The notes below the pieces were generated by a model. That model saw only the letters and a list, made by a program, of their open reading frames with translations. It was not told the origin of the DNA and made no database searches. DNA of 64,000 nucleotides from Ignavibacteria bacterium (lineage in GTDB: Bacteria > Bacteroidota > Ignavibacteria > UBA10030 > SZUA-254), in assembly GCA_016178595.1 (NCBI GenBank), contig JACOSY010000027.1, forward strand, positions 1-64,000, written 5' to 3'. The number at the start of each line of letters is the position of its first letter. Within the stretch, counting starts at the first letter, position 1. Positions 15,863 through 53,757 of this stretch are shown piece by piece. A program made the position numbers and the translations under genes.

Positions 15863-16534
15863 ATGGCAAAGAAATTATTGTCGGAACAACATATTGTAGA
15901 GGCAGCGCGACGCGGCGAGAAGACGATCGCTATTCCTATGGGGACGATCATCACTGATGCGGCGAAGGATCGAGCGAAACAATTAGGCGTTCGCATGATC
16001 GTTGCCAATGAAGCACCTCGCTCGCAGATGCCATCTGTCCCTTCGACATTTGGCCAATCCGGCAAGAAAGAAATCATTGCGATAGGAAGCGATCACGGTG
16101 GGTTTGCTTTGAAAGAGGTGCTTAAACCTTTCGTCGAAAGTCTCAGCTACAAGGTTGTCGATCTCGGAACGTACAGCGAAGAAGCATGCGACTACCCTGA
16201 TTTTGCATATGCTGTTGCACGCACGGTATCGCTTGGTGAAGCATCAAAAGGAATCATGATTGATGCCGTCGGGCTTGCCTCAGCAATTGTTGCGAACAAG
16301 CTGCTCGGGATCCGCGCAGCCTGTTGCTTTGACGAGTTTTCAGCGCGCAGCAGTCGTGAGCATAACGATGCCAATGTTCTAACACTTGGCGGCCGGGTCC
16401 TGGGTACCGAGCTTGCAAAGGCAATCGTCAAGGCATGGTTGGAAACTTCCTTCGGCGGAGGCAGACATCAAAAGCGGATTGAAAAAATCACGCAAATCGA
16501 GAACCGAGAAATCCACCAAAACCCCGAAAAATGA
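15863..16534 (+). CDS. RpiB/LacAB-family isomerase with N-terminal extension, active Cys replaced (223 aa)
   Basis: The C-terminal part (~70-205) is the ribose-5-phosphate isomerase B fold: AIGSDHGGFALKE, CDYPDFA, SREHNDANVLTLGGRV. In RpiB the catalytic cysteine lies in the segment before the GxxxxxANK loop; here it reads GIMIDAVGLASAIVANK, with Asp134 at the Cys position. Residues 1-50 (LLSEQHIVEAARRGEKTIAIPMGTIITDAA) resemble leader segments on proteins associated with bacterial microcompartments, though no shell gene is in the window. Function may differ from ribose-5-phosphate isomerisation. The stop overlaps the next start. Confidence 0.75.
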   Translation: MAKKLLSEQHIVEAARRGEKTIAIPMGTIITDAAKDRAKQLGVRMIVANEAPRSQMPSVPSTFGQSGKKEIIAIGSDHGGFALKEVLKPFVESLSYKVVDLGTYSEEACDYPDFAYAVARTVSLGEASKGIMIDAVGLASAIVANKLLGIRAACCFDEFSARSSREHNDANVLTLGGRVLGTELAKAIVKAWLETSFGGGRHQKRIEKITQIENREIHQNPEK

Positions 16535-17409
16535 CAACTAATCCGATTCTTACCGTACCTTGTGATCTGGTGCGTTGGATGAGGAACCGTCAAGCCCTAT
16601 ATTACATTGTCCATTCTTGTAGATCGTTATTACCCTTGAACATTTTTAGTGTAAAGCAGCACAGTATCATTGATTCGATTGTGAATACACCATTACAACA
16701 TATCGGAAGAATTGCCACAACTGTTCTTCTGGTCATCATTGTGATCTTCGCTTCATTAGTGCCGGGGAGATCAGAACGAGTCGGGTTTACGATCTCTGAA
16801 GCATCGTGCATTCTCGATCGGCTTGAGCCTTCTGTCGGTAGAAGAGTAAGTGAAGCATCGCGGTGGGAATACTTTTTATTAGTGAAACAGTTTGCACATA
16901 AGTATAATGTCGACTACAGAATGATTCTGGCGATTATTACAAAAGAATCGCAATTCAATCATGAAGCAGTCAGTGAACGTGGTGCACGAGGGTTCATGCA
17001 AATCATGCCGGTTACGAATGCAGAAGTTGCCGAACAACTGAAACTCGACAGCATCGATCTTCCGACGGAAAACCTTCGTGCGGGAATTTATTACTTCTCA
17101 AAGCTCTATGAATTATTTCCGAATGCTGTGCCTGATAACCGCCTCCGCTTGGCCCTCGCTGCATACAATGCCGGTCCTTCTCGGGTGTACGATGCCCAGG
17201 AGCTTACGGCCTATTTTGGTGAGAACCCCAATGCCTGGGAATCAGTTCAACATTTTCTCCCGTTGCTTTCAAAGCGGTACGATTCTTTGCACCAGCTCGT
17301 TTGGAAAGACGGTCGTCCACCAAGTGGATTCTGTGGACGGGCTAGCGAAACGGTCGAATATGTAGGAGAAGTGATGAAAGAATACAAAACCTTCAAAACT
17401 GCGATGTGA
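16531..17409 (+). CDS. Membrane-anchored lytic transglycosylase, SLT domain (292 aa)
   Basis: One transmembrane segment (~58-76), then an SLT/lysozyme-like domain: Glu139 in AIITKESQFNHEA is the catalytic acid, followed by GARGFMQIMP and LALAAYNAGPSRV, the classic family motifs. It cleaves peptidoglycan glycan strands in the periplasm, giving 1,6-anhydromuramic ends. The ATG at 16531 overlaps the stop of the preceding gene; internal starts near the membrane helix are possible because the first ~50 residues are unremarkable. Last gene of the alr operon. Confidence 0.88.
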   Translation: MTTNPILTVPCDLVRWMRNRQALYYIVHSCRSLLPLNIFSVKQHSIIDSIVNTPLQHIGRIATTVLLVIIVIFASLVPGRSERVGFTISEASCILDRLEPSVGRRVSEASRWEYFLLVKQFAHKYNVDYRMILAIITKESQFNHEAVSERGARGFMQIMPVTNAEVAEQLKLDSIDLPTENLRAGIYYFSKLYELFPNAVPDNRLRLALAAYNAGPSRVYDAQELTAYFGENPNAWESVQHFLPLLSKRYDSLHQLVWKDGRPPSGFCGRASETVEYVGEVMKEYKTFKTAM

Positions 17410-17456
17410 CGGCTGGCGGATAGGCAGAATTTTTTTGGCAAGTCGTAAGATTTTAC

Positions 17457-17485
17457 TTGACAATTTCAGATCAATATTATATATT
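17457..17485 (+). promoter_or_regulatory. Strong promoter without a downstream protein gene
   Basis: TTGACA at 17457-17462, 17-bp spacer, TATATT at 17480-17485. No open frame follows on this strand for more than 1 kb, so the transcript is probably non-coding. Confidence 0.65.
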
Positions 17486-17491
17486 CATTCC

Positions 17492-17705
17492 AGTGCGGGG
17501 GCACGTGATCCAGGAGGAGGGCGTTCGACAAAATACCTGTTACCCTGGGTTCTAATCAAATACACGAAGGATCATCTCTTAAAATAATTCCATTCATTCG
17601 AAGGCGCTGACAATTGTATTGAATTGCTCGGGAGGCGGTTCGTACACGTTGGCGCCTTCGATGCTTTTATACCTCTCCAAGATTACCAGGACAGTGCGTC
17701 CGGCT
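17492..17705 (+). ncRNA. Candidate structured non-coding RNA (6S-like layout possible)
   Basis: Starts about 7 bases after a near-perfect promoter and fills the 328-base gap between the transglycosylase and arginine decarboxylase genes. Visible pairings: GGGGCAC near 17497 with GTGCGTCC near 17695 (one bulge) closes the RNA; GATCCAGG with CCTGGGTT (G-U pairs) makes a 5' hairpin; TCGAAGGCGC with GCGCCTTCGA (about 17598/17661) closes a second, 60-base hairpin. A long rod with internal bulges of about 190-215 nt would suit 6S RNA, but I cannot confirm the family. It is not tmRNA or RNase P: no conserved ends are present. Confidence 0.4.
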
Positions 17706-17737
17706 TCGCTTGCCGATTGATTCCTCATGGAAAGAGA

Positions 17738-18283
17738 TTACGGTAAGAGAATTGCACTGGCGATCACCGTTGTCCAGAGACCGTTTTTATCGCCCTCGGC
17801 AGATTGCGTGACGTTGTAGGTCTTAACGATCTTGCCGCTCATCTTGTAAATCTTTTCACGTTCATCCCATCCGGTGTCAGGACTAAACTCAACGCCAAGC
17901 GTTGTCGCGAGCATTGTTGCAGCAAGATCCTCTGCGTACTCTCCCGCTCGCTCATCGGTTTCACCGAACGGATGGTGTTCCGAGAGATAGCCATACTGTG
18001 TGGTGTCTGCCGGCGTTGCCACACCGATCGACGCGGCGATAAGACGGTTTGGCTCGTTGGTAGCACTACGCGCCATGACGGCGAAAGTAATTTGTCCTGG
18101 CTGAAGGAGTTTGAGGCCTTCTTCCGTTGGAATCCTTCTACAGCCTGGCGGATAAATACTCGAAACGGTCACCAGATTACACTTCTCAATCTTTGCGTCG
18201 CGGAGGGCAAGCTCAAAAGACTGCAAGTAGTCTTTATGTCGACCAACGCCTTTCGTGAAAAACATTTTACCGGGGACGTACAC
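17738..18283 (-). CDS. Pyruvoyl-dependent arginine decarboxylase (181 aa)
   Basis: Converts arginine to agmatine, the first step to polyamines. The proenzyme cuts itself between Ser41 and Ser42 in [12 protein letters not shown], and the new N-terminal serine becomes the pyruvoyl group. [25 protein letters not shown] at the start, and [15 protein letters not shown] in the alpha chain, match the archaeal/Chlorobi/chlamydial family. The start is GTG at 18283 with AGGAG 9 bases upstream, which keeps the typical VPxxMFFTKG N-terminus; an ATG at 18265 would lose it. Confidence 0.9.
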
Positions 18284-18513: not shown

Positions 18514-18975
18514 TTACCGCGCATAGTCGCGTCGCAGTTGTCGCTCAACGTCCCGTCGTGCGATTGCTTCACGTTTATCGTATATTTTTTTCCCGCGCGC
18601 AAGTCCTATCTCCACTTTCACGATGTTCTTCTTGAAATACAAACGAAGAGGAATTAACGTCGCTCCTTTCTCCGCAATCTTCCCGACCAGCTTTCGGATT
18701 TCCTTCTTGTGGAGGAGGAGCTTCCGATCCCGCTTGGGATCATGATTGTTGATATTTCCCTTTTCAAACGGACTGATGTGCAGGCCGAGTAGCCACACTT
18801 CGCCATTCCGGAGAACAGCGTAGCCATCGTGCAAGTTCGCACCCCCTTGGCGGAGCGATTTCACTTCTGTTCCCTTGAGGGCAATGCCTGCCTCGTACCG
18901 GTCGATGATGAAATACTCGTGCAGTGCTTTGCGGTTGGTAACGATCGTGTGTTCACTGGAGTCGTCGGCAGTCAT
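18514..18975 (-). CDS. smpB: SsrA-binding protein (153 aa)
   Basis: Partner of tmRNA in rescue of stalled ribosomes. Typical SmpB sequence: [41 protein letters not shown], then [16 protein letters not shown] and a basic C-terminal tail. The ATG at 18975 gives the usual length; an in-frame ATG at 19032 would add an unlikely 19 residues. No tmRNA gene was recognised nearby. The integrative element begins just upstream of its start. Confidence 0.93.
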
Positions 18976-19146
18976 CTCATATCTACACCATTGGGTGCGG
19001 ATAATGATACGGAATTCAGAGGGGAATTGCAACTGGGGGAGATCGGAAAGAGAGAGAATGAAAGATCAAAGAAAATAATACGGATTGGGAGGGTTTGGAG
19101 AAAGAGAAAGGATAAGAAAATGGATACTTGCTGATGTTTGCCGATG

Positions 19147-19206: not shown

Positions 19207-20247
19207 ATGAGTGTGAAGCTACGAAAACGAAAACTGCCGAGTGGGAAAGTGCAGTTGTACCTAGACACCTATCGGTACGGGGAACGAAAGACAGAGGCTC
19301 TTCAAATGTTCTTGAATGGGGATAGATTCCACAATCAAGAAACTATGAGAATGGCAGAGATTATCCGGGCACGGAGAGAAATTGATCTGCAAGGAAGGAT
19401 TCATGGGCTTTCGTGTGCGTATAACAGGAGATCGAATTTCATAGCGTACATGAAGTTACAAGGAAAGAAAAAACTATCGAGAGGTACACAGCAGAACTGG
19501 GAATCAGCAATTGCAAAACTTTGTGACTTTGCAGAGGGGGAAATTGTGTTTGGAGATATAACGCGATCATTTGTTGAAAACTTCAAAGATTATCTGATAC
19601 AGAAAGTGAAGGCAAGCACCGCGGAGATTTATCATTCTAAGTTCAGGGCTGCGTTGCGGCAAGCGGTGAAGGACGGTATCATCAATGTGAGTCCGGCAGA
19701 GGGAGTTTTCATTAAGGTCGAGGAGAGCCTACCGGTGTTTCTAAGCCTTGATGAAATCAAGAAACTTGCAACAACGAAGAGCAATCGAAAGAATACAAGC
19801 AACGCATTCCTGTTTGGATGCTTCACGGGGCTTCGATATTCTGACATCAAGAAATTGGAATGGAAAGACATTCGCGATGGATACATCGAGTTCAGGCAAA
19901 TGAAAACTAAAAATGCTGAGAGGTTGCCACTATCATCACAAGCGAAAAAAATATTGGAGGAGCAGAATGGCATATCGGGGAATCGCGAGGGATTAGTATT
20001 CCATTTGCCTCATCGAAATTCTGTGAACACTTGGCTAAGGAATTGGGCCAAGAGGGCAGGGATTGGGAAGAGGATATCATTTCATAAATCACGACACACA
20101 TTTGCGACATTAGCATTAACGGTAGGAGTTGATTTGTACACAACATCAAAATTGCTCGGGCACCGTGACTTGAAAACGACACAGATTTATGCAAAGGTGG
20201 TTGATGAGAAGAAACAACAAGCTGTGGACATGCTTCCGGTGATCTGA
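19207..20247 (+). CDS. Tyrosine recombinase / integrase (346 aa)
   Basis: Site-specific recombinase with all catalytic residues visible: Arg210 in FTGLRYSD, His293 and Arg296 in SFHKSRHTFAT, His319 in LLGHRD and the nucleophile Tyr328 in TTQIYAK. The N-terminal part (~70-160) is a SAM-like core-binding domain. The arrangement resembles integrases of Bacteroidota mobile elements. It lies just inside the left repeat, as expected for an integrase that recombines flanking att sites. Start ATG at 19207; GGAAGGAG lies about 10 bases upstream. Confidence 0.93.
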   Translation: MSVKLRKRKLPSGKVQLYLDTYRYGERKTEALQMFLNGDRFHNQETMRMAEIIRARREIDLQGRIHGLSCAYNRRSNFIAYMKLQGKKKLSRGTQQNWESAIAKLCDFAEGEIVFGDITRSFVENFKDYLIQKVKASTAEIYHSKFRAALRQAVKDGIINVSPAEGVFIKVEESLPVFLSLDEIKKLATTKSNRKNTSNAFLFGCFTGLRYSDIKKLEWKDIRDGYIEFRQMKTKNAERLPLSSQAKKILEEQNGISGNREGLVFHLPHRNSVNTWLRNWAKRAGIGKRISFHKSRHTFATLALTVGVDLYTTSKLLGHRDLKTTQIYAKVVDEKKQQAVDMLPVI

Positions 20248-20578
20248 GGATGTAGCGTATTATCATGGGAGAAAGTTGCAAGTACTGTTTGCATGTCCTA
20301 CAGAAGAGTAGTAGATTGGTGGACGGTGCATGTGAGTAATGTTAGTGTTTTGGGTTTGCTGTTTGTGTTGAGGTGGTTGTTGCCTTCGTGTTATGATGTG
20401 TGAAGTTCGTTGTGTTGAGGGTTCTTACCTCTAGTGCTTTCCAGTGCGTTAATCTGGTTTGTTAGTCTGGTTTATTGATTTGGTTTTTTGAACATCATCT
20501 TGACACATGATGAGACAATTGTGCCTATTCATGCGATGTGAGTCAGGATGACATTCCCATGAAAGGAGATATTTTCCA
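20248..20578 (+). other. Non-coding, G/T-rich intergenic tract of the element
   Basis: No credible gene. On the plus strand, 20300-20480 is strikingly rich in G and T (runs such as GTGTTTTGGGTTTGCTGTTTG). A TTGACA at about 20500 followed 17 bp later by GCCTAT is a weak promoter for the HTH gene. A replication origin or Rep nick site could be here, but no clear hairpin was found. Confidence 0.4.
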
Positions 20579-20857
20579 ATGGGATTATCAAATGAGAATA
20601 TCTTGCAGGCGATTGAGGAGCTTCGCAAGGAGATGTGTGCGTTAATGAACAAGCCTTATTCCCTCAAAACAGCGGCAGAATATTTGGGGGTAACAGTGAA
20701 CTACATGTATAAGCGTAATGATAAGAACGATATTCCCTATTATAAACCTTCTGGTAAGATGGTGTTTTACTTCAAGAGGGATTTGGATGAGTGGGTAAGA
20801 AAAAATCGTGTATCATCACAAGCCGAAATGGAAAGAGGGACGAAAGATGCTGCATGA
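20579..20857 (+). CDS. HTH DNA-binding protein, excisionase/AlpA-like (92 aa)
   Basis: Small protein with a MerR/AlpA-like winged helix: YSLKTAAEYLGVTVNYMYKRNDKNDIPYYKPSGKMVFYFKRDLDEWV. Such proteins following an integrase often act as excisionases or as regulators of element genes; which applies here is unknown. The N-terminal ~25 residues are a charged helix. A good AAAGGAG lies before the ATG. The gene overlaps the next small gene by 11 bases. Confidence 0.75.
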   Translation: MGLSNENILQAIEELRKEMCALMNKPYSLKTAAEYLGVTVNYMYKRNDKNDIPYYKPSGKMVFYFKRDLDEWVRKNRVSSQAEMERGTKDAA

Positions 20858-21047
20858 ACGGAAAAAGGGTATGGAAGTAATAACGGTAATGATACCTTCG
20901 AGCGTTGGCGAGTTTGAGAGAGTACAAATTGCTGGTTCGATCGTGCGTTTGAATGAGGAAATCATTGGTGTAAATGTGGTTGATGAGAATGGTGAGGGCT
21001 CGTACTTCGAGTTTGGAGGTTCTAGTGAAGATGAACAGCAGAATTGA
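20847..21047 (+). CDS. Small acidic protein of unknown function (66 aa)
   Basis: Begins at the ATG at 20847 within the end of the HTH gene, with AGAGGGA 7-13 bases upstream. It has a basic start (MLHERKKGME), then beta-like sequence (VITVMIPSS, VQIAGSIVRLNEEIIGVNVV) and a Glu/Asp/Gln-rich tail. Not recognised. Position between the HTH gene and rep suggests a replication or copy-control accessory, which is inference only. Confidence 0.5.
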   Translation: MLHERKKGMEVITVMIPSSVGEFERVQIAGSIVRLNEEIIGVNVVDENGEGSYFEFGGSSEDEQQN

Positions 21048-21161
21048 ATCCAGGGCAGTTCGCTTGTTTATATTTATCATATCTCATCATGTGTGTAGTG
21101 CATTGGTTAACGGTAGAATACGTGAAACTGCTGGCTGGAGCCGGCCCAATGCGCTACGCCT

Positions 21162-22115
21162 ATGTGTCCTTCGTATGTGGAGGTGAATGAACGTTCCATC
21201 CTGATACGTGTTGAGAATCGGCTGCTGCGGAACATGCATTCGAGGCTATGGAAGCGTGGGGAGGTGAAGCAGTTTTCGAAGAATTCACAGCGGCGGCTGG
21301 CTCGGTTACTTATGAACAATGCGGAGAAATTCAAATTGTTTTTTACGGTAACTTACCGTGTGAATCAGCGGGACTGCAAGCTATCGAAGAAGCATGTAGA
21401 CTACTTTCTTACACGTTTTAGGAAGGCATGTAGTTTTGATATTGGTTATGTGTGGGCGTTAGAATTTCAGAGGCGTGGTGCGGTACATTTTCATTTGTGG
21501 TTTGAGGAATTTCAACCGAAAGAGTTTTCAGAGTGGCTTGGATTAGCTGTGAGAAGACAGATAGGATTGCGGTTTAAGGATTCTGTTTTGAATCTGAATC
21601 GCTTCAAGTTTCTGACGTACCTTTGGCTCAAGATCACGGGTCAACTCAGCGATGAGAAGGCGGTTAGAGCCTCAACGGATTTGAAAGTGATTACGAGCTC
21701 AAACTTTGTGGTATCATACGCGATCAAATACGCTTGGAAAAGGGAGCAGAAGGAATATGGAGGGAGTGTTGTCGAAAATGGGAAGGTGCTGGACGGTTGG
21801 ACTGGAAGGTTCTGGGGTGCGTCGCGCCGGATTAGGAACGAGAAGCTATATGATTCAATGAATGTGAAAGGCATTCGGATAATCAGGAAATGGCTTTCAA
21901 AGCAGATGGGGAAGAAGAAAGTTTCTGGACTTTGGATTCTGTGGGATAAGAATCTTAGAGATCGGTTGCTTATGTTGCTGGGTCACAGTGAGTTTATGAA
22001 ATTAGGGAGAGATGATAGTACGACGGTTAAGCGATTGGAGGAGTTGCGGTACTCGTTGCAAGATGCGTCAAATAGAAATGAGATATTGAAGATACTAAAT
22101 GCAGTGGGCAAATAG
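21162..22115 (+). CDS. HUH-type rolling-circle replication initiator (Rep) (317 aa)
   Basis: Three Rep motifs in order: motif 1 FFTVTY (~60-65), the metal-binding HFH in RGAVHFHLWFEE (109-111), and a tyrosine motif SYAIKYAWK (Tyr186, Tyr190, with Lys189 between). This is the pattern of Rep endonucleases of plasmids and small ssDNA phages, which nick an origin and stay bound to the 5' end. The C-terminal ~120 residues are helical and basic, with no helicase motifs. The start is uncertain: ATG at 21162 is the first in frame. It suggests the element replicates by rolling circle after excision. Confidence 0.75.
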   Translation: MCPSYVEVNERSILIRVENRLLRNMHSRLWKRGEVKQFSKNSQRRLARLLMNNAEKFKLFFTVTYRVNQRDCKLSKKHVDYFLTRFRKACSFDIGYVWALEFQRRGAVHFHLWFEEFQPKEFSEWLGLAVRRQIGLRFKDSVLNLNRFKFLTYLWLKITGQLSDEKAVRASTDLKVITSSNFVVSYAIKYAWKREQKEYGGSVVENGKVLDGWTGRFWGASRRIRNEKLYDSMNVKGIRIIRKWLSKQMGKKKVSGLWILWDKNLRDRLLMLLGHSEFMKLGRDDSTTVKRLEELRYSLQDASNRNEILKILNAVGK

Positions 22116-22950: not shown

Positions 22951-23574
22951 TTAGTCGTAGTTTTTTCTGAATAGCGACTTAAAATTAGTTTGCGATCCGC
23001 GGTCCTTGGATTTCTCTAATTCGCTAATGTTTAATTGATAATTACAGGCGTTTGACAGTCTCTCGTTGATGAAACTCTTATTATTCCCTTCAGTGTATTC
23101 AAAGTAGACAGTCATAACTCTTACTCCAATTTTCATCAGGGCTCGTGCAAGTGGAACAAAGTCGCCATCTCCGGTGACTATAGTTGCAACATCAATTTTA
23201 TCGTCGAGGGCAATTTGAAGTATATCGAGCGCCATTGCAACGTCGGTGCCTTTCTCGCTTTTGCTTAGAGACATGGGGCTAAATTTGGGTTCAATCCCGG
23301 CATGCATAAGATCGTGGTGTGTATTTCTATCGAACTTTAGTTGATCAAAGGAGGCTTTAGTCGATGTAAACAATCCTTGGTACCAGCCAGAGCAGACAAC
23401 TCTGTAATTACTGTAGCCTTGTTCGCGTTCGTGGAGGAAATTCTCAATCAATTGATGAAGTGGAAAAAAACTTAACCAACCCAATTTGCGATTGTGATAA
23501 TAGTGTTTTTGTGCGAGAGTAAAGTAAGTGCCGTCATAGAACACTCCAATACGAAGTAAAGACTTGTCGGACAT
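22951..23574 (-). CDS. NYN-domain (LabA/DUF88-like) putative RNase (207 aa)
   Basis: PIN-like NYN fold with the acidic residues expected for metal-dependent nuclease action: Asp14 in GVFYDGTYF, Asp111 in KGTDVAMALDIL, and Asp136/Asp138 in VTGDGDFVPLARAL. A basic C-terminal tail follows (~185-207). NYN proteins cleave RNA or act in toxin-like and defence settings. I chose the ATG at 23574 (MSDKSLLRIGVFYDG); the frame extends upstream through a hairpin, which is unlikely to be coding. The transcript leader carries a 113-base imperfect hairpin, suggesting post-transcriptional control. Confidence 0.8.
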   Translation of the reverse strand: MSDKSLLRIGVFYDGTYFTLAQKHYYHNRKLGWLSFFPLHQLIENFLHEREQGYSNYRVVCSGWYQGLFTSTKASFDQLKFDRNTHHDLMHAGIEPKFSPMSLSKSEKGTDVAMALDILQIALDDKIDVATIVTGDGDFVPLARALMKIGVRVMTVYFEYTEGNNKSFINERLSNACNYQLNISELEKSKDRGSQTNFKSLFRKNYD

Positions 23575-23627
23575 GGCTGCAACCTCAATTAAAATGTAAT
23601 AAAAAAGGCGTGAATTAAGTGAACCTC

Positions 23628-23740
23628 TGTCCTGAGGTACTGAGATACCCGCCAACAAAGGAATCACCAACTCACGCCCCATTGAGGGGCGAACAGTTGG
23701 CTTATCCCTGTTGGCTTGAAAGTTCTCAGTTTTCAGGACA
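23628..23740 (-). repeat. 113-base imperfect hairpin in the leader of the NYN gene
   Basis: Five nested complementary blocks: TGTCCTGA/TCAGGACA, ACTGAGA/TCTCAGT, GCCAACA/TGTTGGC, CCAACT/AGTTGG and CGCCCC/GGGGCG, about 34 base pairs, with a 5-base terminal loop and small internal loops. It lies 54 bases upstream of the NYN start, downstream of a candidate minus-strand promoter (TTGCAA, 18 bp, TATGAT). It could act as RNA, or as DNA such as a single-strand origin or packaging signal. Confidence 0.85.
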
Positions 23741-53148: not shown

Positions 53149-53757
53149 TCAGCGGCCAAACGCGTATCGAGAAAAGTGCGGAACCTGGCAATTCGTCGCT
53201 GATAAATCTCCCAAGAGCGAGAGTGAGATATTCGCTGGCAACAGCGTGAATACCCCTTCCTCGTTATCGTACCAGAAATTCAAGATCGAGCTTATAAGGG
53301 TAAGATTCGTGGCACTGTACCCCAATACCGCAGATCTTTCAAAGACCAGTCCTTCAGGCTGAAAGCGAACAGCACAGTATGCAGTATCAAGTGTCATGGT
53401 AATCATTTGGTCTCTCGTAAGCGCGTTAGCCGGTATCATCAGACTTGCATTGACATCGACCGTCTTTCCTGCTTGAGAGACGTATGAGAATTTTGCGACT
53501 AATGTTCCGCCGGTATTTGCCGAGACCGACTGAGTCACCGAAACCTGGGGCTTGCTCGTCTTTGCTGCAGGTAAATTTTGTAAGGTAACACCCGAGGTGA
53601 GATTGTCGATGATATTGGATACCATCGCCGGGTGAGTTGCTTTTTGTTGTGTTTCCATCAGTGGCTCGACTACTGAACTATCGTTACATCCACTCAGGAA
53701 ACCTATCCCAACACACAAACAGAGTGTAGAAACAAAGAACAATACTGCTTTTTTCAT
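53149..53757 (-). CDS. Surface/periplasmic lipoprotein, ZU5-like domain (202 aa)
   Basis: Lipoprotein signal ending FLSGC. From about residue 80 the sequence resembles ZU5-type surface domains: NTGGTLVAKFSYVS, DVNASLMIPANALTRDQMITMTLD, VRFQPEGLVFERSAVLGYSATNL and the closing CQVPHFSRYAFG. It lacks catalytic motifs. It heads the lipoprotein-TPR-histidine kinase unit and has a candidate sigma-54 promoter and upstream palindrome. It could be the output or the surface sensor of the system; this is inference. Confidence 0.7.
   Translation of the reverse strand: MKKAVLFFVSTLCLCVGIGFLSGCNDSSVVEPLMETQQKATHPAMVSNIIDNLTSGVTLQNLPAAKTSKPQVSVTQSVSANTGGTLVAKFSYVSQAGKTVDVNASLMIPANALTRDQMITMTLDTAYCAVRFQPEGLVFERSAVLGYSATNLTLISSILNFWYDNEEGVFTLLPANISLSLLGDLSATNCQVPHFSRYAFGR

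Follow-up and report, generated by a model that had tools for sequence, protein, structure and literature searches.

The window, meaning the whole stretch of 64,000 nt of DNA that was analysed, carries a promoter in the gap between two convergent genes, one for a lytic transglycosylase-like protein and one for a pyruvoyl-dependent arginine decarboxylase (Table 1). The TTGACA-17-TATATT promoter named in the initial annotation lies exactly at 17457-17485 and scores 11/12 against TATAAT and 12/12 against TATATT. Across both strands of the window there are only three promoter sites at 12/12 and seven at 11/12 or better. The stretch behind this promoter is non-coding, as had been claimed: no listed plus-strand open reading frame of at least 60 aa falls within 17486-17737, where the longest open stretch is about 50 codons. 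A long hairpin begins about 110 nt downstream of the promoter and, together with its T-rich tail, occupies 17594-17668.

Table 1. Genes, promoter elements and predicted RNA features at the locus (positions in the window)
Feature	Position	Strand	Basis or remark
Lytic transglycosylase-like gene, flanking, outside the RNA	16531..17409	+	best hits far under the NCBIfam cut-offs
Putative upstream element, TCGTAAGATTTTAC-like	17437..17456	+	abuts the -35 hexamer; similar bases in several relatives; found by eye
-35 hexamer TTGACA	17457..17462	+	TTGAC[AT] in 12/12 copies with enough upstream DNA
-10 hexamer TATATT	17480..17485	+	exact 17-nt spacer in 12/12 copies
Predicted small RNA, ~178 nt	17492..17669	+	predicted start 7 nt past the -10 hexamer; predicted end at the T tract
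Variable 5' region	17492..17593	+	unconserved between genera; nearly missing in the second family
Long hairpin: 14-bp outer helix, inner stem, apical stem-loop	17594..17664	+	fold, model R1, covariation
5' arm of the 10-bp outer stem, UCGAAGGCGC	17598..17607	+	pairs with 17652-17661
Conserved apical core GCUCGGGAGGCGG, loop CGGGA at 17629-17633	17626..17638	+	proposed pairing seed; exact in 7/13 homologues
3' arm of the outer stem, GCGCCUUCGA	17652..17661	+	pairs with 17598-17607
Terminator tail: short T tract behind the stem	17665..17668	+	weaker than in several relatives
Pyruvoyl-dependent arginine decarboxylase gene, flanking, convergent, outside the RNA	17738..18283	-	

The hairpin (17593-17669) has a predicted folding energy of -36.5 kcal/mol, compared with -19.4 +/- 2.9 kcal/mol for shuffled sequences (z -5.86; 0 of 200 as good), and the entire predicted RNA (17492-17669) reaches a z-score of -3.25, again with none of 200 shuffles as good. 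The closing stem that had been proposed for the RNA holds poorly, because the stretch that would include it (17488-17737) has a z-score of only -1.80, with 12 of 200 shuffles as good. The fold signal is lost on this extension, and the RNA probably ends at the hairpin, near 17669, rather than reaching 17737 as first suggested. The arms of the 10-bp stem described in the initial annotation and its count of 44 enclosed bases are exact, but these bases are not an open loop: they hold the inner stem and an apical stem, GAAUUGCU/GGCGGUUC, that closes CGGGA. The T runs of three homologous copies (L093, L094 and L096) are longer than that of the window copy. The antisense strand was considered as the RNA and rejected, since its fold z-score is -1.32 and the covariance model R1 described below prefers the plus strand (67.3 versus 17.8 bits).

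A DNA search matched 4 of 60 relatives, including the genome from which the window comes (G000, the own genome below), and outside that genome the matches covered the apical region only. The arginine decarboxylase loci of relatives share a common order of promoter, variable stretch, hairpin with a conserved tip, T tract and convergent decarboxylase gene. Ten of the hairpins were aligned (alignment A1), and the covariance model R1 was built from this alignment. R1 matches the window at 17595-17668 (67.3 bits, E 5.7e-12) and matched 13 of 100 relatives. The initial annotation had named lack of conservation in relatives as evidence against an RNA; in the search of the order, R1 finds one copy each in 13 of 98 genomes (E 3.5e-4 to 3.9e-14): the window's family has it in 10 of 15 genomes and a second family in 3 of 5, and the 78 others have none. 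Weak copies may be missed in these searches, because strict filters were applied and at most 50 candidates per genome were scored. A promoter of the form TTGAC[AT]-17-TAT[AT]TT stands 74-192 nt upstream of the loop in 12 of the 13 copies; the contig of the remaining copy (L104) ends too early to hold one, so that no copy with sufficient upstream sequence lacks the promoter (12 of 12). The RNA of the second family hardly exceeds the hairpin. In this family a palindrome abuts the -35 hexamer, AATACCTCAAATGAGGTATT in two copies (L102 and L103) and AATACCGCAAATGGGGTATT in a third (L105), and is likely to be the operator of some regulator.

The covariation across relatives that had been suggested as a check is found in the outer stem. 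In the RNAalifold structure of A1, 13 of 20 pairs are changed on both sides, among them 10 of the 11 in the outer stem (10 sequences). Cells of the alignment are paired at 93.3%, compared with 81.8% after shuffling (0 of 500 as high) and 30.9-56.5% when the structure is slid along the alignment, a comparison that favours the structure because it was derived from the same sequences. The hairpins of seven species have fold z-scores of -3.6 to -7.3. The pattern GGG.G.CG is invariant in the 10 aligned sequences, and copies without the exact apical core keep GGG while neighbouring bases vary. Conservation, covariation and a second genomic context thus support the promoter-driven structured RNA that the initial annotation had postulated from the window sequence.

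The second context is that of the L105 copy, which lies between genes for a sigma-54 activator (PF00158) and a glycosyltransferase (PF00535), while the other 12 of the 13 copies adjoin the arginine decarboxylase gene. Because the L105 copy sits beside other genes, the RNA appears to stand alone, and the decarboxylase neighbourhood is no evidence of its function. The locus has its own promoter, an intrinsic terminator (with a short T tract in the window copy) and no coding frame, and we consider it very probable that this is a small RNA gene independent of its neighbours. The gene would have been kept vertically in two related families, with a long intrinsic-terminator hairpin as its 3' end. 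An ordinary, possibly bidirectional, terminator or a 3' UTR hairpin of the flanking convergent genes, with no RNA gene of its own, could also account for a terminator-like stem and T tract between convergent genes. Such a reading gains from L013, where a related hairpin (loop CGGGAG) directly follows the transglycosylase stop codon, no promoter was found and R1 gives no match at E<=1; this hairpin would be a remnant or a 3'-UTR form. It has little chance for the locus as a whole, however, since a promoter precedes all 12 copies that could show one, the apical core is conserved in sequence and the place of the L105 copy excludes a terminator of the same transcript pair. A cis-acting antisense or leader element for the decarboxylase gene, to whose 3' end the 12 adjoining copies point, is very improbable: about 70 nt separate the end of the predicted RNA from the decarboxylase stop codon, the L105 copy is located elsewhere, and 5 of the 15 genomes of the window's family, 4 of them at least 81% complete, have no match.

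The length of about 180 nt, the strong stand-alone promoter and the long hairpin are all features of 6S RNA, which the initial annotation had offered as one possibility. RF00013 has no match in the window at gathering thresholds or on 17400-17800 at E<=10, the RNA differs from 6S RNA in locus, structure and sequence, and its second-family form is hardly more than a hairpin. Furthermore, another RNA occupies the 6S place in the own genome. Sub-threshold RF00013 matches were found in 4 of 16 genomes, the best at 38.3 bits with a cut-off of 46.4. Two of these RNAs (L086 and L087) precede the ribonuclease Y gene (rny), and on the other side of L086 lies a ZapA-like gene (a significant match, under the NCBIfam cut-off). 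The rny gene of the own genome, assigned by alignment with relatives, is on contig C60, and the stretch after a ZapA-like gene and before rny (L090 ~505-768, corresponding to G000:C60 ~53304-53567) aligns over its full length with the RF00013-like RNAs of four relatives, all of them below the cut-off, at 66% mean column identity (five sequences). The C60 RNA itself has no RF00013 match, so that it is called 6S-like for its alignment and its place; since the Rfam model misses it, the 6S RNA of this group seems to be under-detected. That the RNA in the window is instead a divergent 6S RNA is scarcely credible.

The alternative offered alongside 6S, an undescribed RNA, agrees with the Rfam searches. 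No family matched the window at gathering thresholds, only implausible and unrelated families appeared on 17400-17800 at E<=10, and the RNA in the 13 homologous loci returned nothing at E<=5. Chlorobi-1 (RF01696), Chlorobi-RRM (RF01697) and Bacteroidales-1 (RF01693) are uncharacterised RNAs of neighbouring phyla (PMC2864571), but their models match the RNA neither in the window nor in the 13 loci. Literature searches on small RNAs of Ignavibacteria or Chlorobaculum returned no study of the present RNA. In kind it is ordinary, but as a family it is new: none of the catalogues searched lists this conserved small RNA gene. A tmRNA was also considered, and neither ARAGORN nor Rfam finds one in the window although smpB (18514-19032) is nearby. 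Phage origin was rejected as well: the core and its flanks occur in two viral contigs, but in both they are part of a longer open frame and the complete hairpin is missing, and one of these contigs has a weak R1 match (21.2 bits, E 0.0035 in 28 kb) in coding DNA of 74% GC.

Known protein partners of small RNAs were also searched for. Hfq (PF17209) was found in 0 of 30 genomes, including the own genome and its 14 family relatives, with 5 of 14 controls positive, and an Hfq-dependent trans-acting small RNA was rejected on this ground. CsrA (PF02599) was found in 0 of 15 genomes of the window's family, that is neither in the own genome nor in its 14 family relatives, compared with 9 of 40 genomes overall and 3 of 14 controls. 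A CsrA sponge was rejected accordingly; the RNA resembles CsrB- and RsmY-type sponges in having GGA within a conserved loop, but differs from them in that there is essentially one such loop and CsrA was not found in the family.

We propose a trans-acting RNA. The terminator loop, which is G-rich (GCUCGGGAGGCGG), would pair with C-rich sites (CCGCCUCCCGAGC) at mRNA 5' ends and start codons, pairing would block or free ribosome binding, and neither Hfq nor CsrA would be needed. Because the hairpin tip is the most constant part of the RNA, its complement was used as the search motif. Allowing at most one mismatch, CCGCCTCCCGAG yields 20 sites in three genomes, three of which are the RNA genes themselves. 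The motif CTCCCGAG occurs 29 times in G020 and 25 times in G030, compared with 9 and 3 for the reversed motif, and 15 versus 13 times in G015. Among the 66 non-self sites of these three genomes, 12 form at least 12 contiguous pairs with the genome's own RNA; these reduce to 8 independent sites after orthologues are joined, and 3 of the 8 are at starts (from 40 nt upstream to 20 nt downstream of a start codon, sense strand). The chance of this is 0.001-0.002 in a post hoc test that assumes an estimated background of 3-3.5%.

The complementary sites at second-family starts or leaders are 12-15 nt long. One, at AUG+3, belongs to the gene of a 505-aa protein and is present in G015, G020 and G030 (L109, L121 and L155), another is in a 5' leader 36-37 nt upstream of the start in G020 and G030 (L123 and L180), and the third is 23 nt before the dprA start in G015 (L147). 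The 505-aa protein has an apparent signal peptide, judged by eye, and no Pfam family in its first 160 residues. Its site in G015 reads AUG CGC CGC CUC CCG AGC GCU; one codon of the G020 orthologue is CGU, a change that preserves the pair as G-U. At L109/L121 one codon in six differs, compared with 178 of 333 elsewhere, a conservation that is not significant (0.08). The G020/G030 leader site is also complementary to the ribosome-binding site of the same mRNA (CGCCUCC and GGAGGUG, judged by eye), and pairing with the RNA could therefore free that ribosome-binding site. The 15-nt site L113/L185 is antisense to a coding frame, and other long complementary sites are inside genes. Duplexes at nine sites, which were picked for their complementarity, have energies of -27 to -34 kcal/mol, and for each site none of 300 shuffles is as strong. 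Promoters precede sites at the rate expected by chance in G020 (7 observed, 4.2 expected) and G030 (2 observed, 3.8 expected). In a conserved intergenic stretch of G020 and G030, CTCCCGAG also stands beside a terminator-like repeat (L145 and L176).

The own genome contains 24 copies of CCTCCCGAG, compared with 5 of its reverse. Three of the 23 non-self sites (L196, L199 and L214) follow a promoter of 11-12/12 with its -10 hexamer within 60 nt, for which the chance is 6e-5 at the window rate of 0.0033; no promoter-linked sites were found on the other strand. The L196 site is in a leader, 6 nt past the -10 hexamer; the gene behind it encodes a protein of 247 aa with an apparent signal peptide. 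L231, where no promoter was found, is likewise a leader site, roughly 50 nt upstream of the gene for a second protein that apparently has such a peptide (UPF0164). Downstream of L214 stands an inverted motif copy, with which L214 may pair instead. At L199, TTGACA-17-TATATT is followed by CCTCCCGAGC and then, within about 60 nt, by a terminator with seven T, and this may be a separate small RNA. Enrichment of the motif is absent in G015 (15 versus 13), G002 (43 versus 35) and G007 (64 versus 61), and a promoter precedes 0 of 42 sites in G002 and none of the 10 examined among 64 in G007. Over 18 genomes, the pattern of promoter plus site gives 28 hits compared with 5 for the reversed pattern, and the frequencies in genomes without the RNA (6 hits in 5) and with it (22 hits in 13) are hardly different. 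The sites L220, L221 and L222 are nearly the same repeat and are taken as a single site.

Further promoter-driven elements were seen in two relatives. In G008, L274 (G008:C7:689505-689558) has TTGACT-17-TATATT followed by 19 nt that are exactly antisense to the apical region of the window RNA, with two mismatches to the RNA of G008 itself; its minus strand carries AAGUCGAAGC and the apical core and resembles half a copy of the RNA gene. L199 and L274 look like anti-small-RNAs, and a two-RNA circuit in which such antisense mini-transcripts counter the small RNA is conceivable but improbable. If it exists, a lineage without Hfq would control the leaders of secreted-protein genes by loop-loop pairing. 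In G005, L282 and L286 (contigs C50 and C52) carry the complementary motif behind a promoter, in near-identical hairpins with CGCCTCCCAGG and a T tail that are possibly another small RNA family. They were not used as targets because they pair internally, and their agreement with the changed loop of G005 is only suggestive.

The reading we favour, at a probability of about 0.5, is antisense action, with the G-rich terminator loop pairing to mRNA starts. The estimate is no higher because of the unenriched genomes, the promoter search, the insignificant codon conservation and the choice of the duplexes, and the main rival is a protein-binding RNA. In that case the apical stem-loop, with its tandem U-G pairs and GGG loop, would be the site of some protein, the RNA would be abundant and would titrate the protein or be stabilised by it, and the complementary mRNA sites would be incidental. 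The first family conserves the flanking apical stem with its U-G pairs and not the loop only, and the target evidence is uneven between genomes, both of which suit protein binding. The failure to find Hfq and CsrA also leaves room for it, and for the same reason another partner would be needed. Protein binding leaves unexplained the long complementary sites at start codons and leaders, as well as the own-genome sites right behind strong promoters, and we regard it as possible though unlikely.

The closest known system for pairing by the loop is RepG of Helicobacter pylori, described as an intergenic, promoter-driven small RNA whose terminator-hairpin loop is C/U-rich and pairs with a G-repeat in a 5' leader (PMC8295292). 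The present RNA is likewise intergenic and promoter-driven, with the terminator-hairpin loop as the proposed pairing region and 5' leaders among its candidate targets, but here the loop is G-rich and the sites are C-rich; the likeness to RepG as described there is one of layout, and no sequence relation is claimed. The RNA adds a conserved small RNA family to the Ignavibacteria/Ignavibacteriae/Bacteroidetes branch, for which no small-RNA study was found in the literature searched, and the window's family that carries it is one in which Hfq and CsrA were not found. If its loop pairs with mRNA starts, regulation by a terminator loop in the absence of Hfq could be tested directly here, the sites being on dprA and on genes of apparently secreted proteins. 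To our knowledge, H. pylori also lacks Hfq.

Beside smpB, the window holds an integrated element (19207-22112) with an integrase (phrog_1), an excisionase-like protein (20579-20857) and a rolling-circle replication initiator (21162-22115; PF23343, phrog_3419). This element is followed by a NYN-domain gene (22951-23682; PF01936).
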